From NCBI GenBank assembly GCA_963082975.1, contig OY720346.1, forward strand, positions 38,715,787 through 38,779,786: a stretch of DNA of 64,000 bases. The letters are read 5' to 3'. The notes below the pieces were generated by a model. That model was not told the DNA's origin and did not search any database. It saw only the letters and a program-made list of their open reading frames with translations. The DNA is from Labia minor (lineage: Eukaryota > Arthropoda > Insecta > Dermaptera > Spongiphoridae). This document shows positions 963 through 63,444 of the stretch, piece by piece. The position numbers and the translations under genes are program-made. Numbering within the stretch: the first letter of the stretch is position 1; each line of letters opens with the position of its first letter.

Positions 963-1600
963 TTTTTACCGATCGACGATAGTAAGGGAGGTATTGTTTT
1001 CACAACAAATTTCACATGTGGAGATTTTTACATATCTCCACGAATCATGCATTTTCTAAACAGAAAAAAGTATTTTTAGCATGTCTGTCCGTCCGTCCAT
1101 CCGTCCGTATAGATGTGTACAGCCTGAACGGCTCAACCGATTTTGATGAAATTTGGTATATTTACTTAATACATCAGTGGGATGAATTGATCAACTTTTG
1201 GTGCAAATCCGGAAACCGGAAGTGGTAGTATTAGCGATCGACGATAGGAAGGAAAGGGTTATTTTCACAGCAAATTTCACATGAGGAGATTTTTTCATAT
1301 ATCACCACGAATCATGCACTTTTTATTGGTTTTATCCTCGGGAAAATCATATTTATTAGTTTTTTCTTGATTTAAAATTATATGACGTCATCCAGCCATT
1401 CATGACGTCACAGCCTGGTCTTGCATATATATTATAAATAAAATAAAATTAAAAATGTTTATATTTATTATTTATGTATCCATATCTGTTTTTTATTACA
1501 TTAATAGATATATTAAAATTATTTGAAATTGTTTCTGTAGCTGCTAATTAATTTACTTCAAACCGTCGGTCGGTTCGGACCTGGCCACAGGTCAACTTAT
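963..1600 (+). mobile_element. Family A element (HINE-like), copy A1, full length
   Basis: A reference copy of family A. It begins TTTTTACCGATCGACGATAG and ends with an inverted copy of that motif (CCGTCGGTCGGTT) followed by the hairpin GGACCTGGCCACAGGTC and AACTTAT. Between them lie a GTCC microsatellite, the block around AACCGATTTTGATGAAATTT, GGAAACCGGAAGTGG, and two TGACGTCA palindromes 20 bp apart. The first roughly 90 bp are imperfectly repeated inside the element from about 1234 (GCGATCGACGATAGGAAGG). The 70-codon open frame here is not a gene; the same DNA is disrupted in other copies. Confidence 0.75.
1383..1410. promoter_or_regulatory. Paired TGACGTCA (CRE-like) sites in A1
   Basis: Two perfect 8-bp palindromes TGACGTCA lie at 1383-1390 and 1403-1410. 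The same pair with the same 20-bp spacing occurs at 7096/7116 and 23153/23173, and in most longer A copies. TGACGTCA is the consensus full CRE bound by CREB/ATF-type bZIP proteins. Whether these copies are bound is inference only. Confidence 0.4.
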
Positions 1601-1749
1601 TTCTCTAATGATAGCCACTCACCTTTTAAAGTAGAATTTGACATTTTTCAAAGTTTTGAGTATTTAATACCGATCGCTTCTTTAATAATAATATACTATT
1701 TATTTACAAGCTATCCACATTCATATTTATTTAAATATTTTATGAAAAA

Positions 1750-2532
1750 AATCTGGAGTGTCTCCACTCGACTATCTCGCAAATTTGAATTGGATTACTT
1801 AACATATATATATATATTTAAATGAATTAAATTATAAATTAAAATGAATAAATATTATTTATTAAACCAGCACGTGTTTGACTGTTAATGGCATCACGTC
1901 ACATCCTGGAGCGTGATGGTAGTCAATGAGCTAAAAAATTAATTCCGGTACTTTCAGGGATTCACAATCATGCTGAAATACTATATATAGCAGTTTTATA
2001 CAATTATTAATCATGTGAAAAACTATCTTTATTAACTATCTTATTTAACTATCTTTATTTTTACGGTCAGTTTAAAGGAAAAAAAAGCGGGAGTGTCCTC
2101 CCCTAGACTTTCCCGCATATAAATAGGTAATTAGGTTATTATTATTATGTTTTATCAACAATAAAAATAAACAAACCAATTAATTTAAATTATAAAGTAA
2201 AATGGTTTAACACTATTATATATATTTATAATTTACACCTAACGCTACTTGTATAGGTAAAATGTCACTTCCGGTAGTCAGATCATGATGAAATTTGGTA
2301 TCTCAATTTTTTTCATATTTTTAAATCTATATACAAAATATGAAGCAAATATCTCGAAGCAAACTGGTACTTTACTTGAAAGGTAAACGCAACCAGTGTA
2401 GGTAAAGTACCACTTCCGGTTAACCGATTTTGACGAAATTTTGATAGAAATCTACAAACTGTGAATAATATCGGTGTACCAAATTTCGAAGTCCTAGCTT
2501 GATTAGTTTTTGAGTAAATTTGCTTACAGACA

Positions 2533-2563
<31 letters not shown>

Positions 2564-2900
2564 CATACATACATACATACACACACAGACATAATTCGAA
2601 AAATGGTATTTTCCGACTCAGGGAGGTCTAAAACGTCAAGATCTATCGAAATCTCGAAGTCGAAATTTTTGACGATTCCAATACTTCCCTTATACGAAGT
2701 ATGCGGGAAAGTAAAAATGAAAACATGATAGGTAATGACCCTTTTCCGGATGAGGTGTATTTCCCAAAAGTTGATAGAAAACTACAATTTCATTATTCTA
2801 GTTCAAACCGTTTTTGCGTATGACTCAGGGACCTTCAAAACGTATAAAAACATCGAAAATTTTCGTGACCACAATACTATCTCTGGCGAGATACTAAAAA
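1750..2900 (-). mobile_element. Family C element (HINE-like), copy C1, split by B1
   Basis: On the minus strand this copy starts at about 2900 with TACTATCTCGC-like sequence (degraded here: the plus strand reads GGCGAGATACTAAAA) and ends near 1751 with GCGAGATAGTCGAGTGGAGACACTCC. The last part folds into a GAGTG/CACTC hairpin. It is interrupted at 2081-2716 by family B copy B1, which sits in the A-run that intact copies show after GGTCACTTTAGAGG. No coding capacity. Confidence 0.7.
2081..2716 (-). mobile_element. Family B element (HINE-like), copy B1, full length
   Basis: On the minus strand it begins TTTTTACTTTCCCGCATACT and ends ATGCGGGAAAGTCTAGGGGAGGACACTCCCGC, where GGGAG/CTCCC forms a terminal hairpin. 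The core is a TATG microsatellite (about 2537-2580 on the plus strand) followed by the shared GGTTAACCGGAAGTGG block. It is nested inside C1. The open frames across it on both strands are microsatellite artefacts. Confidence 0.75.
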
Positions 2901-2981
2901 TGTTTCTCTTAATATAAATATTATACGAGGTGTGTTCGAAAAGTAAGGTGACTTTGTATTTTTTTTAGAAAAAATATTTAT

Positions 2982-3774
2982 TTATTTATCAATATTTATA
3001 TTGTCCCCTTCAAAGTAATCCCCCTCAGATACAATACACTTATGCCAACGGTTTTTCCAATCCTCAAAGCACTTCTCATAAGCACTTTTCGGTATAGCCT
3101 TGAACTCTTCCAGTGATGCAGCCTTTATCTCCTCAATCGTTGCAAATCTCCGTCCTTTCATAGGTCTCTTTAGTTTTTATGTTTAGTTTTAGTTAATTTT
3201 TTAGTTATGACCCTTTTGAGTAAATCTGGGTCGTCGTTGACGTCATTCAACAGCTCTTGAGCGATGCTCATGCGACGGTTCTTTTGGTCAAAATGTAGCA
3301 ATTTTGGAACAAACTTCGCTGACACACGTCTCATACCCAAAACGTTAGAAAAAATTTCATGGCACGAGCCAAGCGATATACCGACATCCTCAGCAACTTC
3401 TCTGATAGTGATTCGACGATTTTCAAAAACAATTTCCTTCACTGCTTGAACGTTTTCATCAGTTGTTGACGTGCTTGGGTGACCAAAGCGAGGCTCGCCA
3501 TTGGCATCTTCCCAGCCATCTTGGAAGAGTTTGTACCACTTGTAAACATTTTTTTTACTCAGAACAGTTTCACCGTATGCCACTGTCAACATTTCAAGTG
3601 TTTCGGAGCACTTTATTTTATTTTTACTTTCCCGCATACTTCGTATAAGGGAAGTATTGGAATCGTCAAAAATTTCGACTTCGAGATTTCGATAGATCTT
3701 GGCATTTTAGACCTCCCTGAGTCGGAAAATACCATTTTTGGAATTATGTCTGTGTGTGTATGTATGTATGTATG

Positions 3775-3805
<31 letters not shown>

Positions 3806-4288
3806 TGTCTGTAAGCAAATTTACTCAAAAACTAATCAAGCTAGGACTTCGAAATTTGGTACACCGATATTATTCACAGTTTGTACATTTCTATCAAAAT
3901 TTCGTCAAAATCGGTTAACCGGAAGTGGTACTTTACCTACACTGGTTGCGTTTACTTTTCAAGTAAAGTACCAGTTTGCTTCGAGATATTTGCTTCATAT
4001 TTTGTATATAGATTTAAAAATATGAAAAAAATTCAGATACCAAATTTCATCATGATCTGACTACCGGAAGTGACATTTTACCTATACAAGTAGCGTTAGG
4101 TGTAAATTATAAATATATATAATAGTGTTAAACCATTTTACTTTATAATTTAAATTAATTGGTTTGTTTATTTTTATTGTTGATAAAACATAATAATAAT
4201 AACCTAATTACCTATTTATATGCGGGAAAGTCTAGGGGAGACACTCCCGCTTTTTTACACAAAATTTGATGCAAATCCTTTCATCCAT
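2982..4288 (-). pseudogene. mariner transposase relic (N- and C-terminal parts only)
   Basis: Read on the minus strand, the likely start codon is at 4288 (MDERICIKFC). The frame is broken by element B2 and resumes near 3620 at IKCSETLEML. From there about 145 codons show the helix-turn-helix DNA-binding half of a mariner transposase, including PSTSTTDEN, the second HTH around ITIREVAEDVGIS and the linker NDVNDDPDLLKRVIT. Immediately after this the frame runs into a T/A-rich filler (3160-3190) and stops. A second in-frame segment, 3158 to 2982, encodes the family's C-terminus (KNRWHKCIVSEGDYFEGDN) and a stop codon. The whole D,D34D catalytic region between the two parts is missing. Family assignment is secure; subfamily is not assigned. 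Confidence 0.85.
3621..4252 (+). mobile_element. Family B element (HINE-like), copy B2, nested in mariner M1
   Basis: Begins TTTTTACTTTCCCGCATACT, has a TATG microsatellite at about 3758-3803 and ends TGCGGGAAAGTCTAGGGGAG, ACACTCCCGC and a T-run. It interrupts the mariner transposase a dozen codons after its start, so it arrived after the mariner. No flanking duplication is evident; the insertion point is an A/T homopolymer run. It is nearly identical in layout to B1 in the opposite orientation. Confidence 0.75.
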
Positions 4289-4500
4289 AATTTTTAAATA
4301 GCAAAAAATCGCCGAGAACGCAAAACACTTATAACCTTTACGTCTCTCACAACCAAACAAAAAATGCTATACACTTGAAACTTGGTTCAGATGTTCGTGA
4401 AGTGTGTACCAACATAACAAAACAAAAAAATCGATAATCGTAAGTACGTTGCCCGCGAAATTTGAAAAGTCACCTTACTTTTCGAACACACCTCGTATAT

Positions 4501-5980: not shown

Positions 5981-6199
5981 TTATTTATTTTCCTTTTTCT
6001 TAGTTTCAATATATTCTTTTGTTGATGTTGTTGTTGTTGTAATCATTTGTCCGTAGGGACCGATTGCTTTCTTGAGCGATCGCAATAGTAGTTCTTTTCG
6101 TTTGGAATCACGAACCCGATTTCTAAACTTGCTAACAAGCGTAGTAAGTTCAATATTCAATTTTCTAACACTTGTTGGATCGTTACAATCGATTAACGC
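5981..6199 (-). CDS. Unrecognised 72-codon open frame, no start codon
   Basis: On the minus strand an open frame runs from a GCG codon near 6199 to a TAA at 5981-5983. It opens with ALIDCNDPTSVRKLNIELTT, continues through a basic segment (KFRNRVRDSKRKELLLRSLK) and KAIGPYGQM, then a threonine run and a lysine-rich tail. The composition is markedly more gene-like than the flanks. A short upstream frame (MSNMTAKDQ then stop, near 6243) lies in a different frame. It could be the last exon of a host gene, a decayed gene, or a transposon fragment. I do not recognise the family. The ACA run encoding threonines is a plain microsatellite. Confidence 0.35.
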   Translation of the reverse strand, partial: ALIDCNDPTSVRKLNIELTTLVSKFRNRVRDSKRKELLLRSLKKAIGPYGQMITTTTTSTKEYIETKKKENK

Positions 6200-6915
6200 T
6201 TATTAACATGTCTTTATTGATCTTTTGCAGTCATATTACTCATCTTAAATATCGCATTTGTTGGAGGAAACCGGGAGTTATTGGGGGGAACGAGAAGGTG
6301 GTGGTGAAGGTGGGAGGAGGTCAGAGGATGTAATTTAATGCTACATTATTAAAGGAAACATGTCCGTTTCACTTTGACGTTTTTGCATCTATAATTCACA
6401 GAATTTTATAAAGAATTTTTTTTTTAACTTGTCATTATAATTATAAACTCGCCTCCTCCCTCTCCTCAAAAGGGGAAGGGGGGGGGGCTTCGAAAAATGT
6501 AGAATATTTCAGTGTATCATTCTTAAAATAATTTGTAATGATGCAGTATTAATAAAGTTAAAGAGAAATTGTTGATATAAAATTTATTTGCATAAATAGC
6601 TGCTACCTATGCTAATTTTACGTAAACATTTAAAAATAGCCGTACCTATATAAATTATTATTTATATTATTATTATAAAACCAAAATTAAAATATTGAAT
6701 TAAAAAGTTAAATCTTATTTTAAAGAGGAAGGGGGGAGAGACTACAACTGTATACCTAAATATCCATTAAAGAATCCATAAAGAGGTTAATAAGTGAAAA
6801 AATTCAATTCAATTTTTCAAAAATAAATCTCACTTCTTCCATAATAAGATAAAGATTTTCTCAACCAATAAGATTTCTTAAAAAAGGTTCACTATCGTAT
6901 TGGATTATATCTTAA
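6200..6915. other. Spacer with G-rich patches
   Basis: A G-rich patch at about 6265-6330 (GGTGGTGGTGAAGGTGGGAG) and a second at 6448-6487 with a run of ten or so G stand out from A+T-rich flanks. They have G-quadruplex-forming potential. There is no supported gene. The patches sit just upstream of the minus-strand open frame at 5981-6199, so a promoter or 5' leader is possible but unproven. Confidence 0.35.
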
Positions 6916-7555
6916 ATAAGTTGACCTGTGGCCAGGTCTGAACCGACCGACAGTTTGAAATAAATTAATTTCCAGCTACAGAAACAATTTCAAATAATTT
7001 TAATATATCTATTAATGTAATAAAAAACAGATAGGCATATAACATAAATATTTTTAATTTTATTTTATTTATAATATATATGTAAGAACAGGCTGTGACG
7101 TCATGAATGGCTGGATGACGTCATATAATTTTAAATTAAGAAAAAAACTAATAAAGATGATTTTTCTCGAAGATAAAACAAATACAAAGTGAATGATTCG
7201 TGATAATATGTGAAAAATCTCCTCATGTGAAATTTGCTGTGAAAATAACCCTTTCCTTCCTATCGTCGATCGCTAATACTACCACTTCCGGTTTCCGGAT
7301 TTGCACCAAAAGTTGATCAATTCATCCCACTGATGCATTAAGTAAATATACCAAATTTCATCAAAATCGGTTGAGCCGTTCAGGCTGTACACATCTATAC
7401 GGACAGACCGACGGACGGACGGACGGACAGACATCATGCTAAAAATACTTTTTTCTGTTTAGAAAATGCATGATTCGTGGAGATATGTAAAAATCTCCAC
7501 ATGTGAAATTTGGTGTGAAAACAATACCTCCCTTACTATCGTCGGTCGGTAAAAA
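6916..7555 (-). mobile_element. Family A element (HINE-like), copy A2, full length
   Basis: The terminal hairpin ATAAGTTGACCTGTGGCCAG is on the left and the 5' motif GTCGGTCGGTAAAAA on the right. It carries the GGAC microsatellite near 7401-7430 and paired TGACGTCA sites at 7096 and 7116. The structure is complete. Confidence 0.75.
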
Positions 7556-7728
7556 TGGTAATATATTTATTTAATTATATATACTTGTATTCAAATATAA
7601 TATAAAAATATCAATTTAAAAGTAGATTTATTATTAAATAGAAAATTAAAATTTCTAATATTTCTTTTGTTAAGTATTAAAACTTATGATTGTTTTCATT
7701 TTCAGTTTTTCTAAAAAATACAATTATA

Positions 7729-8115: not shown

Positions 8116-8463
8116 AAAAAGACAGAATTTACAAATTATTTTAATAATAATATATCTATATTATGATTTATCAATTAATAATTATTAAGTTAATAAATAT
8201 CAAATTGTTTTTTTATTTAATTTTGTCATCATCTTTTCAATATACTATTTATTAGTCCCTTTTTTACTTTCCCGCATACTTCGTATAAGGGAAGTATTGG
8301 AATCGTCAAAAATTTCGACTTCGAGATTTCGATAGATCTTGACGTTTTAGACCTCCCTGAGTCGGAAAATACCATTTTTCGAATTATGTCTGTGTGTGTG
8401 TATGTATGTATGTATGTATGTATGTATGTATGTATGTATATATGTATGTATGTATGTATGTAT

Positions 8464-9404: not shown

Positions 9405-9442
<38 letters not shown>

Positions 9443-10998: not shown

Positions 10999-11757
10999 TG
11001 TCGTATATAAAATATAAGGGGGTTGGTATTTTATAAGAAAATATGGATTATAAAATTAGTTTAATTAATTGGTAGCACTCTGGATGAATTTTGGATAATT
11101 AAATGGGTTATTGAATCCGCGTAGGTTGATATGGGAAATATAAAATTGAATAGGTTCAATATGAAAAATGCTTATATAAAATTACAACTAAAATTATTTA
11201 TTTAATAAAACTATAAGAATTTAGGTTCCAATTGATAACAAAAGAAATTAAGATGAAATAGAATAATTGAATGGTACCGTAAAAAAAATATAAATATAAA
11301 TTAAAAGAACTTTAATTTATATTTAAGCAATTGCAATGTTAATTAATTAATTGTTAAGTATAAAAGTGTTAACACTTAGCATGAAAGAAAGGAATGGAGA
11401 GTTCATTGGAGACTTTGAGTCTTGATTGTCTTCCTGCGGATTTAGCTGGAACACCTCGTATGCAACGGCATCTCTCAACAAAAGGGGTTGGCCGCGGATG
11501 TCCTTCCTGCCAGGAAAAATGTCTCACTTCTCTCAAACCTTGATCAAGACTAACTAAATATTCATTTTCACTAATAAGGAAAACTTCGTTCCTTTCCCCC
11601 ACCTTGAACACATGGATGGGTCTCTGTACATGTGCAGACACATGTCCCATGACCAATCGTCTTTTTCTTCAATTTAGCACGTGTTCAAAAATGAAAGTTC
11701 TAGCTTTCGAACCCTTATATACATAAAAAATGTATTTTTTTATGATTATATATTACA
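10999..11757 (-). repeat. LTR (5' LTR in coding direction)
   Basis: 759-bp copy of the repeat at 8464-9222. Its minus-strand TATA-like box at about 11722-11712 would start transcription near 11685, reading leftwards into the element. Confidence 0.85.
11369..11656 (-). CDS. Second copy of the 95-codon LTR open frame
   Basis: Identical to the frame at 8834-9121. In this LTR it lies downstream of the presumed promoter and upstream of the primer-binding-like site, so this is the copy that would be in the leader of a full-length transcript. Confidence 0.4.
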   Translation of the reverse strand: MVMGHVSAHVQRPIHVFKVGERNEVFLISENEYLVSLDQGLREVRHFSWQEGHPRPTPFVERCRCIRGVPAKSAGRQSRLKVSNELSIPFFHAKC

Positions 11758-11766
11758 GTATGTATG

Positions 11767-11797
<31 letters not shown>

Positions 11798-12092
11798 TGT
11801 CTGTAAGCAAATTTATTCAAAAACTAATCAAGCTAGGACTTTGAAATTTGGTACACCGATATTATTCACAGTTTGTAGATTTCTATCAAAATTTCGTCAA
11901 AATCGGTTAACCGGAAGTGGTACTTTACCTACACTGGTTGCGTTTACCTTTCAAGTAAAGTACCAGTTTGCTTCGAGATATTTGCTTCATATTTTGTATA
12001 TAGATTTAAAAATATGAAAAAAATTGAGATACCAAATTTCATCATGATCTGACTACCGGAAGTGACATTTTACCTATACAAGTAGCGTTTCT

Positions 12093-12630
12093 TTTTTACC
12101 GACCGACGATAGTAAGGGAGGTATTGTTTTCACACCAAATTTCACCTATGGATATTTTTAGGTACATATCTCCACGAATCATGCATTTTCTTAACAGAAA
12201 AAAGTATTTTTAGCATGATGTCTGTCCGTCCGTCCGTCCGTCTGTCCGTACGTCCGTATAGATGTATACAGCCTGAACGGCTCAACGGATTTTGATGAAA
12301 TTTGGTATATTTACTTAATACATCAGTAGGATGAATTGATCAACTTTTAGTGCAAATCCGGAAACCGGAAGTGCTAGAATTGCCGATCGAAGAGAGGAAG
12401 TGAAGGGTTATTTTCATATCAAATTTCACGTGAGGACCTATCTCCACGTGTTATGCACTTTGTATTGGTTTTATCCTCGAGAAAAATCATCTTCATTAGT
12501 TTTTTCTTAATTTAAAATTATATGACGTCACCCAGCACTTCATGACGTCACAGCCAGCCCTTATATATTATAAATAAAATAAAATTAAAAATATTTATAT
12601 TATATCCATATCTGTTTTTTTTACATTTAA
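12093..12630 (+). mobile_element. Family A element, copy A4, 3'-truncated, nested in B3
   Basis: Begins CTTTTTTACCGACCGACGATAG and runs through the GTCC microsatellite, GGAAACCGGAAGTGC and the paired TGACGTCA sites, but stops after CATATCTGTTTTTT without the inverted motif or the hairpin. Family B sequence resumes beyond it. Confidence 0.65.
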
Positions 12631-12738
12631 AATATCAGTTAACCGGAAGTAGCACTTTATTACATTCTAAATATTCATTCACAACTCTTTATACCTATTT
12701 ATATGCGGGAAAGTCTAGGGGAGGACACTCCCGCTTAT

Positions 12739-13035: not shown

Positions 13036-13662
13036 ATTTTTACTATCTCGCCAGAGATAGTATTGCGATCACGAAAATTTTGGATGTTAAGATTTTTTAG
13101 TTTTTTATACGTTTTGAAGGTGAATCATTGAATCATTTTCACTAAGGTTGAGAAAAATGTCTGTCTCTGTGTGAGTATGTGTGTGTGTATATGTATGTAT
13201 GTAGACAAGATTATGCAAAAACGGTTTGAGCTAGAATAATGAAATTTGGTACATGGACATTATTCAAAATTCGTAGTTTTCTATCAACTTTTGAGAAATG
13301 TAGCTCAACAGGAACTTACAACGTTTTGATTTTGTTTCTTCAAAAGTGACCGTAAAAATAAAGATATGTGTTTGATAATTTTTCACATGATTAAAAATTG
13401 TATAAAACTGCTATATATAGAATTACAGCTTGATTGAATCGCTGAAAGTACGAGAGAATTTATTTTTTAATACTGCAAATCTCAGGCGCCAACACGTGAC
13501 TTGGTGCCATAAACAAAGAGCCAAACATGCGCTAGTTTAATACATATTATTTATTAATTTTAATTTTAATTTATAATTAATTAAATTTAATTTAAATATA
13601 ATATATTATGTTATTTAATCCAATTCAAATTGCGAGATAGTCGAGTTCAGACTCTCCAGCTA
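13036..13662 (+). mobile_element. Family C element (HINE-like), copy C2, full length
   Basis: Starts TTTTTACTATCTCGCCAGAG, has a TG/TATG microsatellite near 13168-13202, the AAAACGGTTTGAGCTAGAAT block shared with other C copies, and ends TGCGAGATAGTCGAGTTCAG, ACTCTCCAGCTAA. The terminal hairpin is slightly degraded. Confidence 0.75.
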
Positions 13663-13715: not shown

Positions 13716-14345
13716 AATAAGTTATCCTGTAGCCAGGCGCATAACCGACCGACTGTATGAAATAAATTAATTTCCTGATACAGAAACAATATCAACTAAT
13801 TTAAATTTATCTATTAATGCAATAAAAAACAGATATGGATATAACATAAATATTTTTAATTTTATTTTATTTATAATATATAAGTAGGAGCTGGCTGTGA
13901 CGTCATGAAGAGCTAGGTGACGTCATATAATTTTAAATTAAGACAAAACTAATGAAGATGACTTTTCCCGAGGATAAAACCAATACAAAGTGCATGATTG
14001 GAGTGGAGATATGTAAAAAATCTCTTCATGTGAAATTTGGTGTGAAAATAACCCTTCCCTTCCCATCGTCGATCGGTAATAGTACCACATCCCGTTTCCG
14101 GATATACACCAAAAGTTGATCAATTCATCATACTGATGCATTAAGTAAATACACCAAATTTCATGAAAATCCGTGAGCCGTTCAAGCTGTACACATCTAT
14201 ACGGACGTACAAATGGACAGACATCATGGTAAAAATACTTTTTTCTGTTAAGAAAATGCATGATTCGTGCAGATATGTAAAAATCTCCACATGTGATATT
14301 TGATGTGAAAACAATACCTCCCTTACTATCGTCGGTCGGTAAAAA
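13716..14345 (-). mobile_element. Family A element, copy A5, diverged full length
   Basis: The left hairpin is degraded (AAGTTATCCTGTAGCCAGGC), the inverted motif AACCGACCGACTG follows, and the right end is GTCGGTCGGTAAAAA. The microsatellite is short here. The 173-codon minus-strand frame running across its right end is fortuitous: it spans element and spacer. Confidence 0.7.
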
Positions 14346-19483: not shown

Positions 19484-19893
19484 AATCTGGAGTGTCTCTA
19501 CTCGACTATTACGAAAATTTGAATTGAATTAATTAACACATATTTTATATTTAAATTAAATTAAATTCATTATCAATTATTAATTAAAATTAAATAATGT
19601 GTTTGGCTCTTTGTTGATGGCTTCATCTCACCTGCTGGCGCGTGATTGCTATTCAACGCTTTAACAAATTAATCCGGGTACTTTAAGCGATACAATCAAG
19701 CTGAAATCTATATATAGCAATTTTATACAATTTTTAATCATGTGAAAAATTATCAAACATATATCTTTATTTTTACGGTCAGTTTAGAAGTTTAGAGGGA
19801 AAAAATTGAAAACGTGGTAGGTAATGGTCCTCAAAATCTCGACATCGAAAATTTTCGCGATCACAATACTATCTCTGTCGAGATAGTAAAAAA
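19484..19893 (-). mobile_element. Family C element, copy C3, internally deleted
   Basis: Left end AATCTGGAGTGTCTCTACTC (hairpin side), right end GAGATAGTAAAAAA. The microsatellite and the AAACGGTTTGAGCTAG block are missing: the sequence jumps from GGTAATGGTCC to CAAAATCTCGACATCG. Confidence 0.7.
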
Positions 19894-22706: not shown

Positions 22707-23370
22707 ATTTTTTACCGACCGACGATAGTAATGGATAGTAAGGGAGGTATTGTTTTCACACCAAATTTCACATGTGGAGATTTTTACATATCTCCACGAA
22801 TCATGCATTTTCTAAACAGAAAAAAGTATTTTTAGCATGATGTCTGTCCGTCTGTCCGTCCGTCCGTCTGTCCGTCTGTCCGTCCGTATAGATGTGTACA
22901 GCCTGAACGGCTCAACCGATTTTGATGAAATTTGGTATATTTACTTAATGCATCAGTGGGATGAATTGATCAACTTTTGGTGCAATTCCGGAAACCGGAA
23001 GTGGTAGTATTAGCGATCGACGATAGGAAGGAAAGGGTTATTTTCACACCAAAGGAGATTTTTTTATATATCACCACGAATCATGCACTTTGTATTGGTT
23101 TTATCCTCGAGAAAAATCATATTTATTAGTTTTTTCTTGATTTAAAATTATATGACGTCATCCAGCCATTCATGACGTCACAGCCTGGTCTTGCATATAT
23201 ATTATAAATAAAATAAAATTAAAAATGTTTATATTTATTATTTATGTATCCATATCTGTTTTTTATTACATTAATAGATATATGAAAATTATTTGAAGTT
23301 GTTTCTGTAGCTAGAAATTAATTTATTTCAAACCGTCGGTCGGTTCGGACCTGGCCACAGGTCAACTTAT
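22707..23370 (+). mobile_element. Family A element (HINE-like), copy A6, full length
   Basis: Begins TTTTTACCGACCGACGATAG and ends GGACCTGGCCACAGGTCAAC, TTAT. It has a small duplication (ATAGTAATGGATAGTAAGGG) in the 5' motif, a long GTCC microsatellite and paired TGACGTCA sites at 23153 and 23173. Confidence 0.8.
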
Positions 23371-23692
23371 TACAAGTCAATATTAATTACTACTAGTTTT
23401 TTATTATTTCAGATTACAGAGTCTATTTTATATTTGTTTTAAGGCCGGTCCAGACGCTCCGTTTTGCACAACGTTTTGTCTCCGCAGTTCAAGACGTTGC
23501 AGACAAAACGTTGCGTGTGGACCGGAAAACTGCGCAGTTTTGAGTCCGTCGGGAGGACTGCACAGTTGCATCGATAACTGAGCTCGTGAGCTCTGAAAAC
23601 CGTGACCTGCGCAGACATGTCGTTGCGTGTGGACACTTACTCCGTTTTCCAATCCGTTTTGTTCCTCAGTTTTCTCTAATCATGATCTCTAA

Positions 23693-26947: not shown

Positions 26948-27582
26948 TTTTTTACTATCTCGCCAGAGATAGTATTGCGATCACGAAAATTTTCGATGTT
27001 GAGATTTTGATGATTTTATACGTTTTGAAGGTTCTTGAATCATTTTCACTAAGGTTGAGAAAAATGTCTGTGTGTGTGTGTGTGTGTCTATGTGTATGTG
27101 TGTATGTGTGTATGTATGTAGGCAAGATTACGCAAAAACGGTTTGAGCTAGAATGATGAAATTTGGTACATGGACATTATTCAAAATTCATAGTTTTCTA
27201 TCAACTTTTGAGAGATGTAGCTCAACCGGAAGAGGGTCATTACCTACAACGTTTTGATTTTTTTTCCTCTAAAGTGACCGTAAAAATAAAGATATATGTT
27301 TGATAATTTTTCACATGATTAATAATTGTATAAAACTGCTATATATAGAATTTCAGCTTGATTGATTCGCTGAAATTACCAGAATTAAATTTTTAACACT
27401 GCAAATCTCACGCGCCAACACGTGACGTGGTGCCATCAACAAAAAGCCAAACATGCGCTGGTTTAATATTTATTATTTATTATTTATAATTTATAATTAA
27501 TTAAATTTAATTTAAATATAATATATTATGTTATTTAATCCAATTCAAATTGCGAGATAGTCGTGTGGAGACACTCCAGCTA
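26948..27582 (+). mobile_element. Family C element (HINE-like), copy C5, full length
   Basis: Best preserved C copy. It begins TTTTTTACTATCTCGCCAGA, has a TG microsatellite near 27070-27118 and the AAAACGGTTTGAGCTAGAAT block, and ends TGCGAGATAGTCGTGTGGAG, ACACTCC. The hairpin GTGGAGAC-type end is followed by AGCTAATT. Confidence 0.8.
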
Positions 27583-28230: not shown

Positions 28231-28413
28231 GTCACTGGACGCTCGAACAGTGCAGTCGCTTGATAACGATTGCAGAAGTAGCAATCGAAACGTTGTGTAT
28301 ATGTTTGTATTTTTTGAATAAATTTACAATAATAAATCTCAATATGTGGTTTAATTTACAAAATTCCGTTATAAATAAAAACAACCACCAAAGCTTTAAT
28401 AATTTAATTATAA
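28231..28413 (+). repeat. Penelope-like terminus with hammerhead-like hairpin, copy 2
   Basis: Best preserved of the four. GCAGTCGCTTGATAACGATT is followed by GCAGAAGTAGCAATCGAAAC: CGATTGC and GCAATCG form a perfect 7-bp stem with a 7-nt loop, framed by TTGATAA and AAAC. The layout matches a hammerhead stem II between its CUGAUGA-like and GAAA boxes, with changes in the first box. The tail AACCACCAAAGCTTTAATAA is shared with copy 1. Confidence 0.5.
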
Positions 28414-28918
28414 ATTAATAAATAATATTTATTAAACCATCGCATGTTTGGCTCTTTGTTGATGGCATCACGTCACGTGTTGGCGCGTAAGATTTGCAGT
28501 ATTAAAAAATTAATTCTGGTACTTTCAAGCTGAAATTCTATATATAGCAGTTCTATACAATTTTTAATCATGTGAAAAATTATCAAACATATATCTTTAT
28601 TTTAACGGTCACTTTAGAAGAAAAAAAATCAAAACGCTGTAGGTAATGACCCTCTTTCGGTTGAGCTACATTTCTCAAAAGTTGATAGAAAACTACGAAT
28701 TTTGAATAATGCCCATGTACCAAATTTCATGATTTTAGCTCAAACCGTTTTTGCGTAATCTTGTCTACATACACACACACACACACACATACACATACAG
28801 ACATTTTTCTCAACCTTAGTGAAAATGATTCAGGAACCTTCAAAACACTTAAAAACATCAAAATCTCAACATCGAAAATTTTCGTGATCGCAATACTATT
28901 TATGGCGAGATAGTAAAA
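28400..28918 (-). mobile_element. Family C element, copy C6, lacking its hairpin end
   Basis: The minus-strand 5' end (TACTATCTCGCC, degraded; plus strand GGCGAGATAGTAAAAAG) abuts mariner M3 sequence at 28919. The left side stops in AATATTTATTAAACCATCGC without the inverted motif or hairpin, next to Penelope-like copy 2. Confidence 0.65.
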
Positions 28919-32342: not shown

Positions 32343-32987
32343 AATAAGTTGACCTGTGGCCAGGTCCGAACCGACCGACTGTTTGAAATAAATTAATTTC
32401 CAGCTACAGAAACAATTTCAAATAATTTTAATATATCTATTAATGTAATAAAAAACAGATATGGATACATAAATAATAAATATAAACATTTTTAATTTTA
32501 TTTTATTTATAATATATATGCAAGACCAGGCTGTGACGTCATGAATGGCTGGATGACGTCATATAATTTTAAATCAAGAAAAAACTAATAAATATGATTT
32601 TTCTCGAGGATAAAACCAAAACAAAGTGCATGATTCGTGGTGATATATAAAAAAATCTCCTTTGGTGTGAAAATAACCCTTCCCTTCCTATCGTCGATCG
32701 CTAATACTACCACTTCCGGTTTCTGGATTTGCACCAAAAGTTGATCAATTCATCCCACTGATGCATTAAGTAAATATACCAAATTTCATCAAAATCGGTT
32801 GAGCCGTTCAGGCTGTACACATCTATACGGACGGACAGACGGACGGACAGACGGACGGACAGACATCATGCTAAAAATACTTTTTTCTGTTTAGAAAATG
32901 CATGATTCGTGGAGATATGTAAAAATCTCCACATGTGAAATTTGGTGTGAAAACAATACCTCCCTTACTATCGTCGGTCGGTAAAAA
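32343..32987 (-). mobile_element. Family A element (HINE-like), copy A7, full length
   Basis: Left ATAAGTTGACCTGTGGCCAG hairpin, right GTCGGTCGGTAAAAA, GGAC microsatellite at about 32828-32862, paired TGACGTCA sites near 32536 and 32556. Close to A6 in sequence, including loss of the same few bases before GGTGTGAAAATAACCC. Confidence 0.8.
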
Positions 32988-36373: not shown

Positions 36374-36688
36374 AATAAGTTGACCTGTAGCCAGGTCCGA
36401 ACCGACCGACGGTTTGAAGTAAATTAATTTCCAGCTACAGAAACAATTTCAAATAATTTTAATATATCTATTAATGTAATAATAAAACAGATATGGACAT
36501 AACATAAATATTTTTAATTTTATTTTATTTGTAATATATATGTAAGACCAGGCTGTGACGTCATGAATGGCTGGGTGATGTCATATAATTTTAAATTAAG
36601 AAATATTCGTGGAGATATGTAAAAATCTCCACATGTGAAATTTGGTGTGAAAACAATACCTCCCTTACTATCGTCGGTCGGTAAAAAA
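36374..36688 (-). mobile_element. Family A element, copy A8, internally deleted
   Basis: Both ends are present (left hairpin ATAAGTTGACCTGTAGCCAG, right GTCGGTCGGTAAAAA) but the middle, including the microsatellite and CCGGAAGTGG block, is missing. One TGACGTCA has become TGATGTCA. It is nested in the Helitron-like element. Confidence 0.7.
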
Positions 36689-43443: not shown

Positions 43444-43587
43444 TTTTTACTATCTCACAGAAGATAGTATTGCGATCATGAAAATTTTCTATTTCGAGAT
43501 TTTGATGTTTTTATACGTTTTGAAGGTTCATGAATCATTTTCACTAAGGTTTAGAAAAATGTCTGTGTGTGTATGTATATATATACG

Positions 43588-43653
<66 letters not shown>

Positions 43654-44106
43654 GACAAGATTACGCAAAAACGGTTTGAGCTAGATTTATGAAATTTGGT
43701 ATACGGGCATTATTCATAATTCGTAGTTTTCTCTTAACTTTTGAGAAATGTAGCTGAACCGGAAGAGGGTCCTTACCTACAACGTTTTGATTTTTTTCCT
43801 CTAAATTGACCGTAAAAATAAAGATATATGTTTGATAGTTTTTCACATGATTAAAAATTGTATAAAACTGCTATATATAGAATTTCAGCTTGATCGAATC
43901 GCTGAAAGTACCAGAATTATTTTTTAGCAGTCCAAATCACGCGCCAACACGTGATGTGTTTTTTTCCATCAACAAAGAGCCAAACACGCGCTGGTTTAAA
44001 AATTATTATTTATTAATTTTAATTTATTAAATTTAATTTTAATATAATATATGTGTTAATTAATCCAATTCAAATTTGAGAGATAGTCGAGTTGAGACAA
44101 TCAAGA
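43444..44106 (+). mobile_element. Family C element, copy C7, diverged full length
   Basis: Starts TTTTTTACTATCTCACAGAA and ends GAGAGATAGTCGAGTTGAGA, CAATCAAG. The microsatellite is long (TA then TG, about 43574-43650). The terminal hairpin is decayed. Confidence 0.7.
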
Positions 44107-51557: not shown

Positions 51558-51579
51558 TATAAATTAAATGGTAAAATAA

Positions 51580-53078: not shown

Positions 53079-53658
53079 AGAATTATTTATTTCTTGACAT
53101 ATTTTGTTACTTTGTATTCGTTGCAAATATCACTAAAGAGTAGTAGTAAAAATGTATGAGGTAGCTCATTTTGTTTAATTTTATCAAATATTTTTTTTAA
53201 CTAAGATGTCCTATGATGATATAAATTAAACATTGGTTTATTAAACCATGTTCATTTTTCTGAGGACATACAGATATATTCATAAAATAATAGAACGTGT
53301 TGTCATTATTAATATGGTATATAAACAATTTAAAAGGCGAAAAAAGATAATATGCTACTCAAAAGTGATCAACAAAGGAGTTCTATACATCGAACCCCGT
53401 CGTGGATATGAATATTTTAATATACTGATTGAATCAAAATGAATTAAAACCTTTCTCATACTGACTTACAACAAATTATTATGTATTAAATAATAATTTA
53501 AACTTGCTTCACTTATATTTACCGACCGACGATAGTAAGGGAGGTATTGTTTCTTTGCTTAATGTCTTTAATTAAAAAGATATGAAATAATTTGACTGTT
53601 TTAATACGCGTTTATTGATTACTATATCGGTGCGAAATATTCGCATTGGCCAGCTAGT
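53079..53658 (+). mobile_element. Helitron terminus (family H-a), broken copy
   Basis: TTTATTTCTTGACATATTTT at the left and TTTAATACGCGTTTATTGAT, TGCGAAATATTCGCATTGGC, CAGCTAG at the right match the element at 35370-35498 on the opposite strand. Between them lie family H-c sequence and a 36-bp family A fragment (53517-53553, ACCGACCGACGATAGTAAGG). Confidence 0.6.
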
Positions 53659-53669
53659 AGAGATAATAT

Positions 53670-53727
53670 TGTTTGTAAATTAATTTATTTCAAATCGTAG
53701 GTCGGTTCTGTCCTGTCCACAGCTCAT
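53670..53727 (+). mobile_element. Family A 3' end fragment, diverged
   Basis: AATTAATTTATTTCAAATCG, TAGGTCGGTTCTGTCCTGTC, CACAGCTCATT is the 3' inverted motif and hairpin of family A with several changes. It directly precedes the 5' end of A11, so two A elements are head-to-tail here. Confidence 0.55.
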
Positions 53728-55042
53728 TTTTACCGACCGACGACCCGTAAGGGAGGTATTGTTTTCACACCAAATTTCACATGTGGAGATTTTTACATAT
53801 CTCCACGAATCATGCATTTTCTTAACAGAAATAAGTTGACCTGTGGCCAGGTCCGAACCGACCGACGGTTTGAAGTAAATTAATTTCCAGCTACAGAAAC
53901 AATTTCAAATAATTTTAATATATCTATTAATGTAATAAAAAACATATAGGCATATAACATAAAAATTTTTAATTTTATTTTATTTATAATATATGTATAT
54001 ATTTATATGTAAGACCAGGCTGTGACGTCATGAATGGCTGGATGATGTCATATAATTTTAAATCAAGAAAAAACTAATAAATATGATTTTCCCGAGGATA
54101 AAACCAATACAAAGTGCATGATTCGTGGTGATATATAAAAAAATCTCCTCATGTGAAATTTGGTGTGAAAATAACCCTTCCCTTCCTATCGTCGATCGCT
54201 AATACTACCACTTCCGGTTCACGGATTTGCACCAAAAGTTGATCAATTCATCCCACTGATGCATTAAGTAAATATACCAATTTTCATCAAAATCGGTTGA
54301 GCCGTTCAGGCTGTACACATCTATACGGACGGACAGACGGACAGACGGACGGACAGACGGACGGACAGACGGACAGACGGACAGACGGACGGACAGACAT
54401 CATGCTAAAAATACTTTTTTCTGTTTAGAAAATGCATGATTCGTGGAGATATGTAAAAATCTCCACATGTGAAATTTGGTGTGAAAACAATACCTCCCTT
54501 ACTATCGTCGGTCGGTAAAAAGTATTTTTAGCATGATGTCTGTCCGTCTGTCCGTCCGTCCGTATAGATGTGTACAGCCTGAACGGCTCAACGGATTTTG
54601 ATGAAATTTGGTATATTTACTTAATGCATCAGTAGGATGAATTGATCAACTTTTGGCGCAAATCCGGAAACCGGAAGTGGTAGTATTAGCGATCGACGAT
54701 AGGAAGGCAAGGGTTATTTTCACACAAAATTTCACATGAGATTTTTTACATATCACCACGAATCATGCACTTTGTATTGGTTTTATCCTCGATAAAAATC
54801 ATCTTTATTAGATTTTTCTTAATTTAAAATAATATGACGTCATCTAACCATTCATGAAGTCACAGCCTGGTCTTACATATATATTATAAATAAAATAAAA
54901 TTAAAAATATTTATGTTATATCCATATCTGTTTTTTATTACATTAATAGATATATTAAAATTATTTGAAATTGTTTCTGTAGCTGGAATTTAATTTACTT
55001 CAAACCGTCGGTCGGTTCGGACCTGGCCACAGGTCAACTTAT
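53728..55042 (+). mobile_element. Family A element, copy A11, split by A12
   Basis: Starts TTTTACCGACCGACGACCCG at 53728 and stops at CTTAACAGAA (53830); resumes at 54518 with AAAAGTATTTTTAGCATGAT and ends GGACCTGGCCACAGGTCAAC, TTATT. Intact copies read CAGAAAAAAGTATTTTTAGC at the break, so A12 inserted into an A-run, with no duplicated target. Confidence 0.75.
53831..54520 (-). mobile_element. Family A element, copy A12, full length, nested in A11
   Basis: Left ATAAGTTGACCTGTGGCCAG, right GTCGGTCGGTAAAA. It has the longest GGAC microsatellite of the family here (about 54327-54392). One TGACGTCA has become TGATGTCA. Both ends are intact, so this copy defines the element boundaries. Confidence 0.8.
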
Positions 55043-55383
55043 TATGAAATATATTTACATTAAATTAAAATTATATCACATTCGGCAAACAATTTTAAAT
55101 TTAAATTGAACCATTTACATTAATACGCCACCTCCTTGTTTTGTTTTTTTTTTTCAAAATATGATAATTTCATTAATGAACTTCTTACTGATATATTTAT
55201 AATTTTTTTTTTAAATTTTCATTAAGATCTTTGAATAACATTAAGCTTAATGATTTAATAGAATTAATAGAATTAAACTTATTGATTCGATTTAAGATGT
55301 ATTCTAACACCACTAATTTTAAAAATGAATATTTGTTTATTTTATTTTATTTTAATATGTATTTTATTTGAAATAATTTGCAG
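55043..55383. other. A+T-rich spacer
   Basis: Low-complexity DNA ending in ATTTGAAATAATTTGCAG, a splice-acceptor-like sequence before the island that follows. Confidence 0.45.
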
Positions 55384-56625: not shown

Positions 56626-56711
56626 GCGAGAGTGATGGACATCAATTCAACTCTATGAGCTGTTCTTCGAGTTTAACCTGCGAGAAATATCAACCCTTTA
56701 TTAACTCCGAG
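56626..56711 (+). other. Candidate host coding exon, 86 bp
   Basis: Preceded by a pyrimidine tract and AG (TTTTTTTCTTTATCGAG) and followed by the donor-like GAG/GTCAGT. One frame is open across it (ESDGHQFNSMSCSSSLTCEK and on to NSE), with codon-like composition unlike its flanks. A 10-bp stretch at 56888-56897 between TACAG and GTAAGT could be a micro-exon. I do not recognise the protein. Evidence is splice-site shape and composition only. Confidence 0.35.
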
Positions 56712-58549: not shown

Positions 58550-59165
58550 TTTTTACCGACCGACGACAGTAAGGGAGGTATTGTTTTCACACCAAATTTC
58601 ATATGGGGAGATATTTACATATCTCCACGAATCATGCATTTTGCATTGGTTTTATCCTCGGGAAAAATCATCTTCATTAGTTTTTTCTTAATTTTAAATT
58701 ATATGACGTCACCCAGCCCTTCATGACGTCACCCAGCCCTTCATGACGTCACAGCCAGCTACTAATATATTCTAAATAAAATAAAATTAAAAATATTATA
58801 AAAATAGTATTAGCGATCGACGATAGGAAGGGAAGGGTTATTTTCACACAAATTTCACATGAGATTTTTTACATATCACCACGAATCATGCACTTTGTAT
58901 TGGTTTTATCCTCGAGAAAAATCATCTTTATTAGTTTTTTCTTAATTTAAAATTATATGACGTCATCTAACCATTCATGAAGTCACAGCCTGGTCTTACA
59001 TATATATTATAAATAAAATAAAATTAAAAATATTTATGTTATATCCATATCTGTTTTTTATTACATTAATAGATATATTAAAATTATTTGAAAATGTTTC
59101 TGTAGCTGGAAATTAATTTACTTCAAACCGTCGGTCGGTTCGGACCTGGCCACAGGTCAACTTAT
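58550..59165 (+). mobile_element. Family A composite, copy A13
   Basis: Two partial A copies in the same orientation are joined near 58800. The first (58550-58798) has the 5' end, then an internal deletion, and three TGACGTCA-type sites because CACCCAGCCCTTCATGACGT is tandemly repeated. The second starts at TAGTATTAGCGATCGACGAT (58806) and runs to the complete 3' hairpin end. It may reflect recombination between two copies. Confidence 0.7.
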
Positions 59166-60107
59166 TTAAATATGTTTATTAAAAATTTTATAAATATTTT
59201 TATCGATCATATAATAGATTTAATTTATTTTTCATTGATTAATAATTTCGAAATTTGATGAATATTTATTTTGTTGTTGATAAAAAAAAATCTACATTTC
59301 TGGTTGTGAGTGTGTGAAGTGGTATGGTTGGTAGAGCAGGGGTGGAAGTGGGATGAAATGAATTTTAAATGGCGCGTTTGTGTAAATTTGAATAATGGGA
59401 AAATATTCGGAGAATGTGAACTGTTACCGATTTTAATTCCATCATAGATAATTAATCAAAAGTGGCCTTAATGAAGGGGCGGAGTGTCTCTTAAATGAAT
59501 TATCAAACGGCTCGCATTTCATAGACCATGTCAAAGAGAATCAAATTAAGGTTTGTGTTGTAAATGGAATGAATTTATTAAATAATAAATTCATATTTGA
59601 GATGAGAGGTAGAGGAGGGATGAACGGAGTATTTCCAAGAATATCTCTCTCGCTCCCTTCATTGCTATTCAGAGGCAATCCTCCATTCAGCTCCCCTTTG
59701 CGGGACTTACCTACTCCCTTTGCGCCCTTTTATATATTTAAACCCCCCTCGAAAGGTTTCTTCATCATAAATGTACACCCACACTCATATATATATATAT
59801 ATATCGATTTTTATTTTACCTCTTTCCATTATAAAATTATATAATCATATTACAATTATTAAACATAACATTTTATTATTTTACTAAAAAAACAGCAATG
59901 ATATTTAGAATATATAAATTGCTTTTATTAAAAATGTATATAAAACACAAAACAAAAAATCTCTTAAATAAATTGAGAAATGAATTTTTATTAGTGATTT
60001 TATTTTTGTTAATATTGAATTTAAAAAAATAAAAATAAATAAAAAATTAAATATATTGAAAATTATTTTGTCTCATTAATAAAATTCAAATATTGTATTA
60101 TTTATTA
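59166..60107. other. Spacer with complex island 59290-59770
   Basis: The island contains TTAATGAAGGGGCGGAGTGT, CTCCCCTTTGCGGGACTTAC and similar balanced sequence, plus a 91-codon frame (59569-59844) without a recognised domain. It may be host regulatory or intronic DNA. The rest is A+T-rich. Confidence 0.4.
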
Positions 60108-60351
60108 TTAACCGTTTGGCCGCTACGCAGCGCCGTCGCGCTTAGATATATCGTCTCCAATATAGCTACGCGGCGCGGTAGCGCTGTCATTTTAGTGCCA
60201 GTTTGTCGGTCGCCATGGGAGGTTGTTTCTTGCCGCTCGTGTGTTTTTTAAATAAAAGTGTTCTTTCTCAAGCCTAAAGAGTACGATACATCAGTTTTTA
60301 TTTTATAAATATTTTTTTTTATATTTTTTTTTCGCATTGAAAAACGTAGCC

Positions 60352-61623
60352 ATGTCGAGTGATGATAATATTTCGGACTCTGAATTGAGTTCTAATTTCA
60401 CATCTGAGAATAAATCTTTGGACACGATTGATGTAAGCAGTGATGACGATAGTGTAGTTGGTCATAGAAAGAAAAGATTGAGAGTGGAAAGTAAATCTTC
60501 AGAATCGTCTTCTTCTTCTTCTTCTTCAGAAACGGAAGATCTAACATTCATACCCATTCCACCAACAAAAACATTATTTTACAATGCTTGTCAAACACGC
60601 TAATACAGTTTTTCACCAGCATTATGTACCACATCAACAACTATCTATTGATGAATCACTGGTTGGTACACACTGCGATTCATCAATAAAGCAGTATCTT
60701 CCCAGTAAAAAGCATCATAAATGGGGAATAAAATTCTGGATGTTGTGCGACTCAATAACAAAATACTGCTTAGGATTTTTCTGTTACAAAGGAGCCAATA
60801 ATGCAGAAGACAGGGATATAATAAAAAAAGACGGACTAGGATTTTCAGTGGTAGAAAAGTTATTGTCAGTTGGAAATTATCTACATAAAGGTTATCATTT
60901 ATTTTTGGAAGGATGGTGTTGAATGGCTATATCAGAGGTGGCCATCCCAAATGATCTTGCGGGCCACTTTGGAAATGCATCATAACTTCGCGGGCCGCAT
61001 ATAAAATTATACATACCCATATTAGATTTAGACCCATTATAGATATTGTTTGGTGTGACAAATTGAAAAATATTGAATTTTTATTATGTTTACTATTATT
61101 TTTACATATAAACATATATAATATAATAATAATGATGATACTGAATGCACATTGTAAAAAATATATAATACTAAAAATTAAAAAAGAAACAACGAAATAA
61201 AAAAAATGAAATCATATTTATTTCACTAGTGCGATATTTGTTTCGTGAGGGCGCAGAATAGAAAAGTGTGATGAATCTCGCGGGCCGCAAAAATGTTTAC
61301 GGCGGGCTACATGCGGCCCGCGGGTTGGCCACCCCTGGGCTATATCCTATACAAATCTAACCACAGAAAAAAAAATGTCCCGGCTGCAATTCACATCCGC
61401 TATTATTGGACAAATCGAAGAAGAATGGATGACCTTTAGAAATATGGAAAATGAAGCATCAACTTCAAGCCCAAAATTTGCTTTGGAAAAACTACCTGGA
61501 CGCAATTTACGGCAGTGTGCGGTCTGCAGTAATAGGAGGACTGGAATAAAACGTTCCAATCTTATCTGTTGCCGTTGCAAGAAGGGGTTACATGGAATTT
61601 GCGCAGCAAAACATAAATGTTAA
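60352..61623 (+). pseudogene. piggyBac-like transposase relic
   Basis: The ATG at 60352 opens an 83-codon acidic, serine-rich N-terminus (MSSDDNISDSELSSNF, then a poly-Ser run), ending at 60603. Overlapping in another frame, 60584-60922 encodes HYVPHQQLSIDESLVGT, SIKQYLPSKKHHKWGIKFWM and YHLFLEGW, the start of the piggyBac DDE domain with its first Asp in SIDES. The N-terminal dimerisation domain and the rest of the catalytic domain, including the second Asp expected just after YHLF, are deleted. After the MITE, 61375-61623 encodes SRLQFTSAIIGQIEEEW and a Cys-rich finger (CAVC...CCRCKKGLHGICAAKHKC). Non-functional. Confidence 0.85.
60933..61337. mobile_element. hAT MITE, 405 bp, nested in piggyBac
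   Basis: Ends CAGAGGTGGCCATCCC and GGTTGGCCACCCCTG are imperfect inverted repeats, flanked by a perfect 8-bp duplication GGCTATAT (60925-60932 and 61338-61345). Subterminal GCGGGCCGC sequences occur at both ends. It disrupts the already deleted transposase reading frame. Confidence 0.9.
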
Positions 61624-61886
61624 ACTTTTTTTTTTAATTTTTATTTGGCTTTCCATTTTTTTTTATAACATACTACTTGTATATCATTTAATTGCCTTCA
61701 ACAGTTGTTTCCATTAATTCTTTATCTACAAAATGTTAAAAGTTTTATGTAAATCGATGTAAAATTGGAGAAGTTATAAAGTTTTAAGTAGATATATATT
61801 TTTTATTTATTTTATACCAAAATTTCCTTTAGCGGTTTTGGAATGTATTAGCATTTTCATAGATAGCTGCCAAACGGTTAAATATA

Positions 61887-62408
61887 CGAGGGCAGGTCAA
61901 TAAGTCAGTGACTTTTTGAATTTTTGATCTCTTAAATGAAATGACAACACTGCTCCAGTCATCGGGAAACCATCAGCTGACTCCTGTCAAAATTTGAACC
62001 AGCTGGGTCTTTTAGTTTTTGTTTGAATTTCATTAATAGCAGACTACATCGTGATTGGAGAAGAAAATGGAAAAAAGTGAATTTCCATGAAAATCCATGA
62101 ATTGGAATACGAATTGCACCCTCATCCACCCTATTCTCCGGATTTATCCCCGAGTGACTATTTCTTGTTTCCAAACCTGAAGAAATATCTCGGCGAAAAG
62201 AGATTAGACTCCAGGGCTGAAATCATCTCACAAACAAATCTATTTTGATATCCTCAACAAATCTATGTTTTAGAAGGGATTTAAAATTGGAGAAACTTTG
62301 GACAAAGTTTATAGAGCTCAAAGGAGACTACTTTGAAAAATAAAATAAATTTTTATCTAAAAACCTGTGTTTCATTCAAAAAGTCACGGACTTATTGACC
62401 TACCCTCA
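61887..62408 (+). mobile_element. mariner element M4, internally deleted
   Basis: Left CGAGGGCAGGTCAATAAGTC, right GACTTATTGACCTACCCTCA, flanked by TA. The relic begins MEKSEF (near 62069) and then jumps straight to the end of the catalytic domain, HELEYELHPHPPYSPDLSPS, DYFLF, with the third Asp retained, followed by a degraded C-terminus. It starts 9 bp after the piggyBac end. The deletion joint is the same as in M2 and M3. Confidence 0.8.
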
Positions 62409-62830
62409 TATCTATAGAAGTATCATTCTTTCAAATTTAATTTATATGATAGAATTGCCCAGAACCGTATCAAGACAAAACTAAACCCGATACGAAAAAC
62501 ACAATGTAGGCCTCCCCCATTCCATTATCCAAAATTTTACTAAAATTATTTAAATTGGAGCTCACTAAAATATGTCGTTCGATATAATATTAATATTTCA
62601 ATTTGTATTTCAAATTTTTTTTTTATTTTAAATAAATTCTATAAAAATTGTAAATTGTAAAATTTTCTAAATTTGTAGCTAACTTCATAATGCTACAGAC
62701 ATTTCATACATACATAGGGAATCATATATATTGATGATGATAATGATGAAATTATTTAATTTATCAAATATTAGATAATTATTATTGTTTTATGCATCAT
62801 AATTATTCCGATTAGTTAATTTTTCTTATA
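62409..62830. other. A+T-rich spacer
   Basis: Low-complexity DNA without recognised features. Confidence 0.6.
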
Positions 62831-63444
62831 TTTTTACTATCTCGCCACAGATAGTATTGCGATCACGAAAATTTTCGATGTCGAAATTTTGATGTTTTTA
62901 TTCGTTTTGAAGGTTTCTGAATCATTTTCACTAAGGGTGAGAAAAATGTATGTGTGTGTGTATGTATGTAGACAAGATGTTTATGCAAAAACGCAAAAAC
63001 GGTTTGAGCTAGAATTATGAAATTTGGTACACTGGCATTATTCAAAATTCGTAGTTTTTTTGAGAAATGTAGCTCAACCGGAAGAAGGCCATTACCTACA
63101 ACGTTTTGATTTTTTTTCCTCTAAAGTGACCGTTAAAATAAAGATGAATGTTTGATAGTTTTTCACATCATTAAAAATTGTATAAAACTGCTATATATAG
63201 AATTTCAGCTTGATTAAATCGCTGAAAGTACCAGAATTAATTTTTTAACACTGCAAATCTCACACGCCAACACGTAACGTGGTGCCATCAACAAAGAACC
63301 AAACATAGGCTGGTTTAATAAATATTATTTATTGATTTTAATTTATAATTTATCATTAATTAAATTTATTTTAAATATAATATATTATGTTATTTAATCC
63401 AATTCAAATTTGCGAGATAGTCGAGTGGAGACACTCCAGCTTTT
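62831..63444 (+). mobile_element. Family C element (HINE-like), copy C8, full length
   Basis: Starts TTTTTACTATCTCGCCACAG, has a short TG/TATG microsatellite at 62951-62970, carries a small tandem duplication (GCAAAAACGCAAAAACGG) and ends TGCGAGATAGTCGAGTGGAG, ACACTCCAGCT with a perfect GAGTG/CACTC hairpin. Confidence 0.8.

Follow-up and report, generated by a model that had tools for sequence, protein, structure and literature searches.

In the dermapteran Labia minor, a 64,000 bp stretch of DNA (assembly GCA_963082975.1, contig OY720346.1, positions 38,715,787 to 38,779,786, forward strand; hereafter the window) carries copies of three repeat families, A, B and C, which are very probably non-autonomous Helentrons (HINEs), each most likely the internal-deletion form of a Helentron of its own. 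The leader, consisting of the first ~510–560 bp, is kept in all three families, and a match of the short 3′ tail to a partner Helentron was found for B and C. A HINE would then be a leader (5′ subterminal repeat, microsatellite seed and core) joined to a tail (inverted repeat copy, hairpin and last few bases). A Helentron-like nature of the three families had been proposed from the letters of the window, and is supported by the partner Helentrons and by nested insertion sites that lack a target duplication.

HINE-A starts with ACCGACCGACG and ends in a hairpin followed by AACTTATT, HINE-B starts with ACTTTCCCGCAT and has a terminal GGGAG/CTCCC hairpin, with TTATTT after it in most cases, and HINE-C starts with ACTATCTCGC and ends in GGAGACACTCCAGCT plus an AT tail. 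Subterminal inverted repeats are 11 bp long in A, 12 bp in B and 10 bp in C. The 5′ motifs, microsatellites, core and inverted motif claimed for each family were all present where they had been placed, and the families are real and bounded. The hairpin predicted at the 3′ edge was borne out for A and B, with 0/200 shuffles as stable in each when folded as DNA (one stretch per family); the C hairpin is present and is weighed below. In the same test of the 5′ ends, 68/200 shuffles were as stable for A, 1/200 for B and 0/200 for C.

All three families are abundant in the assembly searched (604 Mb, AT-rich, 71 contigs). The A 5′ motif, an exact 15-mer, occurs 27,192 times (reversed-pattern control, 1) and the last 15 bases of A have 22,926 exact copies, while an exact 31-mer of the B 5′ end is found 2,955 times and a 30-base pattern of the C 5′ end 7,690 times (control 0 for both); reversed-pattern controls overall gave 0 or 1. 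In viral contigs there were 0 matches to either a 24-base pattern of the A end or one of 20 bases from the core.

Partner Helentrons and the composite repeat

The check set beforehand was to look for a Helentron with termini matching one of the motifs, and for C such an element was found with both ends. At C1:47862611-47874777, C ends lie on both sides of a 2,181-aa open frame; the 5′ end (L071, oriented 1224) matches a window HINE-C over 515 bp at 96% (bases 1–511 of 628), and 39 bp at the 3′ end match its last 39 bases at 97%. The frame contains DUF6570, Helitron_like_N and PIF1 (PF05970) domains and a weak endonuclease match. A DDE transposase in an autonomous relative had been named in advance as the finding that would speak for another origin, and what the C ends enclose is a Rep/PIF1 frame instead. 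A piece of family A, ~2.1 kb long, with the A 5′ end present and the A 3′ end absent, is nested in the leader, and the leader on its two sides gives an 89% match over 311 bp. An earlier view of this locus (L041) as a Helentron with A 5′ and C 3′ ends was dropped, as the C 5′ end lies further upstream and the A piece is nested. The alignment of a second copy (L045) with the first runs 7 bases beyond the 3′ end and then breaks off. In a third copy (C10, L048), a C 5′ end precedes the frame by ~1.4 kb. At its C-terminus, after the endonuclease region, the C-type protein (L041, C1:47863894-47870436) has an Ulp1/C48-like protease tail (PF02902, 20.3 bits against a cut-off of 20.7), whereas in the A-type Helentron this place is taken by an OTU domain; a literature search for a Helentron with Ulp1 found nothing.

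The A-type Helentron (C1:55785337 onward) has an A 5′ end and a leader that matches HINE-A bases 1–527 of 633 at 93%. Its reading frame begins ~1.8 kb past the 5′ end and specifies a Rep/helicase, interrupted by a few stops, together with an OTU protease domain; the PIF1 domain PF05970 is also present in this protein (the Pfam scan covered the C- and A-type proteins). Matching termini were thus recovered for A at the 5′ end and not at the 3′ end, and the HINE-A tail (~106 bp) is so far without a helper match. Downstream of the frame is a long terminal repeat (LTR) retrotransposon-like element (L058/L072, C1:55803741-55809773), the two LTRs of which are 99.5% identical.

The B-type Helentron (C1:44692855-44706630) is decayed, with a B 5′ end, a leader matching HINE-B bases 1–561 of 627 at 91%, and a Rep/helicase interrupted by stops. 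It contains a nested, 5′-truncated C-type Helentron, and past this and further inserted DNA is a B 3′ end (42 aligned bases at 95% to HINE-B bases 584–624) that is probably its own, so that for B the 5′ terminus is matched and the 3′ terminus only probably so.

B ends also bound a composite repeat of ~1.1 kb, made up of a B leader, a 3′-truncated A piece and a B 3′ end. The window copy (11733–12736, +) is 5′-truncated, with its A piece running from 12098 to ~12635. The 221-bp junction was found at 40 genome places, including the window's own, at 100% (rounded) over 220–221 bp, together with one 45-bp piece at 98%; of 680 first-look candidates, 40 were scored. Eleven composite copies diverge by 0.8–3.8% from their majority sequence; as the ranking of places was by similarity, the age of the whole family may be greater. 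Positions 12098–12736 of the window were at one stage taken for an end swap, from A 5′ to B 3′, a candidate that was dropped as 11/12 fetched loci have B ends on both sides with the A piece nested inside.

It is possible, although we would not favor it, that B (perhaps also A) is now moved in trans by the C-type Helentron, which alone among the three helpers was seen with its full-length frame open. When all 62 of 62 candidates were scored against the B-type Rep piece, the only close match was its own broken copy, and the next long matches were C-type copies at 59–60% over nearly the full length (65% in three short fragments). The 5′ ends and 3′ hairpins of B and C are similar, and the composite is present at the 40 listed places, so B repeats may now depend on the C-type protein. 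On the other side, the low divergence of the 11 composite copies implies that the B helper may have been intact during their spread, the 40 places had been ranked by similarity, and composite B 3′ ends read GGAGGACACTCC, unlike the C form. The B helper could also have been intact at the time of the last spread of B repeats.

Relationship of the three families

The helper proteins of A, B and C are mutually ~50–60% identical, and all carry the Rep motif GSPHEH. When 14 Rep regions of the genome were placed in a tree, these three proteins formed a clade (support 99/99) in which B and C are sisters (94/93). For this tree 484 of 2,291 columns were kept, the C-type row was entered as 2,102 residues (widened by weak matches), and the midpoint root separates canonical Helitrons from Helentrons. 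Similarity between the cores was assessed by best local alignment against dinucleotide shuffles, and gave scores of 36.5 for B–C and 26.5 for A–B, neither of which was reached in 2000 shuffles; the order of core similarity (B–C, A–B, A–C) accords with the Rep tree. A first version of the core shuffle test was discarded, having been spoiled by matched mask letters. The aligned leaders of the helpers also share, in the same order, GTATTG, GAGATTT, ATGTCTGT, GAAATTTGGTA and AACCGGAAG. Since ATGTCTGT opens the microsatellite of A, B and C alike, the different arrays appear to have grown from one seed.

The three helpers would accordingly be descendants of one Helentron lineage, each of which yielded a HINE family in like manner. 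The proposed radiation of three families needs qualifying, in that the families lack independence: their helpers belong to a single clade and their leaders share ordered blocks. Several HINE families per genome are also ordinary, with seven in one mite genome according to excerpts of PMC4067079.

A different account of the common plan, that it arose by exchange of segments between elements and not by descent, appears unlikely. Pieces of A do occur inside the B composite and inside the leader of the C-type Helentron, as such exchange would predict. However, core similarity follows the order of the protein tree, the leader blocks keep their order, and the apparent end swaps were resolved as nested insertions. 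Some later exchange between elements may have taken place in addition to the common descent preferred here.

That the leader blocks are invariant while the proteins are only ~50–60% identical suggests selection on a DNA signal. In the same vein, but more speculatively than the dependence on C raised above, GTATTG, ATGTCTGT, GAAATTTGGTA and AACCGGAAG could be a selected cis-acting transposition signal, the C-type protein moving both C and B by way of these blocks and the similar 3′ hairpins, with the microsatellite a by-product of slippage at ATGTCTGT. Searches for the core outside the three families were negative. Matches in another Helentron locus, L043, were judged by eye to be chance, none were found in pieces of L039, L040 and L053–L055, and a literature search with the 11-base core returned only papers unrelated by title. 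Ends of the A, B or C type were likewise absent from these six loci at the mismatch levels allowed; a single A-like 15-mer found in L043 was attributed to chance.

A helper was thus identified for each of three HINE families within a single genome, and the deletions follow a similar plan in every case. The parts that all three retain, namely an extended 5′ leader whose core is invariant and a short 3′ hairpin tail, are therefore good candidates for DNA signals required by Helentron proteins. A common start word for all three microsatellites would likewise explain how such elements acquire different microsatellites.

Canonical Helitrons of the same genome (for example, L015–L023) are likewise Rep/helicase transposons. 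As labels for Rep frames, GLPH is the sign of canonical Helitrons and GSPH that of Helentrons; five canonical rows, with GLPH in place of the GSPH of the A, B and C helpers, form a separate branch of the tree. Helitron_like_N has 104 matches in the genome, and among the longest frames of the 30 that were fetched, 19 have GLPH, 4 have GSPH (L034–L037) and 7 have neither by the pattern used. In eight canonical loci (L015–L021 and L023) the Rep matches score almost equally and the open frames are 1,537–1,655 aa long; this Helitron looks recently active. At C5:46739897-46792979 there are repeated degenerate Helitron Rep matches, several of them spaced ~5.7 or 9.8 kb apart in the manner of a tandem array.

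Target sites and comparison with known elements

The sequence directly 5′ of the elements is T-rich. TTTT precedes 23,695 of the 27,192 genomic A 5′ motifs, and in the stretches analyzed at least TT precedes 24/24 A, 15/15 B and 8/8 C 5′ ends (counting each flank once, and only ends more than 40 bases from the edge of a stretch). Three nested insertions provide empty sites: A in A (53830–54516, −, within the copy at 53732–55043, +), B in C (2085–2712, −, within the copy at 1753–2895, −) and a B composite in C (L062). A fixed target duplication had been named as evidence against a Helentron, and none was seen beyond the T run at any of the three. The A-in-A site is the cleanest, with five T before and one T after the insertion if the tail is AACTTATT, and six T at this position in three other A copies. 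At the B-in-C site there are 5 + 8 T compared with 8 T in an intact C copy, only T having been added. The search for empty sites gave only matches crossing the joint, several of which were due to chance in AT-rich sequence, and of its 32 automatically assigned end pairs many were wrong, with the A start placed at an internal motif.

We infer that a Helentron Rep/helicase would nick the 5′ end after the T run and peel off one strand, halting at the 3′ hairpin, and that this strand would be inserted at another T-rich site, leaving no target duplication; the assignment of a helper to the repeat it moves is as putative as this enzymology.

Frames at 3170–3706, 60545–60922 and 61249–61623 of the window we take to be mariner- and piggyBac-like remnants, and no link between them and A, B or C ends was seen. 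Such frames would suit an origin of the three families as miniature inverted-repeat transposable elements (MITEs) of a cut-and-paste DDE transposon, as would their short, non-coding form, inverted motifs and very high copy number, but the ends are asymmetric, the nested sites lack a fixed duplication, C ends flank a Rep/PIF1 frame and the partners found are Rep/helicase elements, making this origin highly improbable. DINE-1 has itself been called a MITE, in excerpts of PMC2374699.

The structure, target and helper relation of A, B and C are already known from HINEs and Helentrons, as the available parts of PMC4067079 indicate, and the families may already be catalogued in repeat databases. HINEs of mite and mosquito, in the portions of Thomas et al. 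2014 (PMC4067079) that describe them, likewise have subterminal inverted repeats, a 3′ palindrome and a T-rich, unmodified target, and are deletion derivatives of Rep/helicase/endonuclease Helentrons. Compared by description and not by sequence, the repeats of C are shorter (10 bp, against 12 to 15 in mite HINEs), and the 3′ repeat of A lies closer to its end (~27 bp, against ~38–60 bp; excerpts of PMC4067079). DINE-1/INE-1 of Drosophila, as far as PMC2374699 was available, resembles the A/B/C plan in its subterminal repeats and in a GTCY-rich microsatellite inside the 5′ block, and has a conserved core of ~90 bp and a TT target, a likeness of layout alone; unlike DINE-1/INE-1 as given there, one genome here holds three families with three microsatellites.

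Several observations weigh against derivation of each family from its own Helentron. At the level of the repeats, the 10 bp subterminal repeats of C are under the 11 bp identity rule for HINE families, its 3′ hairpin shows no clear gain over chance in the folding test (14/200 shuffles as stable), and its core matches that of A with a score of only 15.0 (19/2000 shuffles as high; 10/500 for whole elements), a match weak enough by itself that A and C are linked mainly through B. The GSPH motif is one of two Helentron signs in the accessible text of PMC4067079, the other being (F/Y)(w/l/y/k)R; at this second sign the three proteins read YER, YSR and YER, agreeing with it in the outer residues and departing from it in the middle one. 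The endonuclease match of the C-type protein (PF14529) has an E-value of 0.0013 on the whole protein and of 4e-5 on a piece, where its 23.9 bits are below the Pfam cut-off of 27.4. Among the partners, the A-type Helentron yielded no A 3′ end over 15 kb downstream (to C1:55813300), where LTR elements intervene, and 17.9 kb of another A-type copy (C2, L042/L056) contain no A end. For the B helper there is only one close copy, with stops, and the 3′ end of the helper may belong to another B element, as other inserted DNA intervenes. The third C-type copy lacks a C 3′ end in 2.1 kb downstream (L047) and has a leader unlike that of the first, and the 4.5 kb upstream of a C-type copy on C60 lack A, B and C ends alike. 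Lastly, the B-in-C site has 13 T against 8, and a short TT duplication inside T runs cannot be told from none.

Copies in the window

Copies of the three families cover 14,243 of the 64,000 bases (22%) by permissive BLAST, counting pieces of at least 60 bp and ignoring shorter ones, with matches to A, B and C partly overlapping each other. At the tolerated mismatches there are 3′ ends of nine A, three B and eight listed as C, the last being in fact seven, as one of them (4249) belongs to the HINE-B copy at 3626, whose end had been read as C. The list of A 5′ ends includes an internal motif copy that is present in most A copies. Many copies are truncated, nested or without one end.

Complete HINE-C copies are found at 13042–13661 (+), 26954–27581 (+) and 62836–63441 (+). 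Another, at 43449–44105 (+), has a decayed 3′ hairpin, that at 28326–28914 (−) is missing its 3′ end, and a further copy is at 19487–19887 (−). The HINE-C split by the nested HINE-B has its 3′ end at 1753 and its 5′ end at 2895, the latter with up to 5 mismatches. HINE-B is represented by this nested complete copy, a second complete copy at 3626–4252 (+) and a 5′ fragment with a TATG array at 8266–8454 (+).

The complete HINE-A at 968–1601 (+) has one mismatch in its 5′ motif, a 3′ hairpin ending at 1593 and the tail AACTTATT; other complete copies are at 6915–7550 (−), 22714–23371 (+) and 32343–32982 (−). The 3′ hairpin of the copy at 13716–14340 (−) is decayed, the copy at 36374–36682 (−) has an internal deletion, and a short internal-deletion form at 53521–53731 (+) directly precedes the HINE-A that is split by another. 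The HINE-A at 58555–59166 (+) is rearranged inside, and holds a perfect 20-bp tandem repeat of 2.5 copies (58703–58752).

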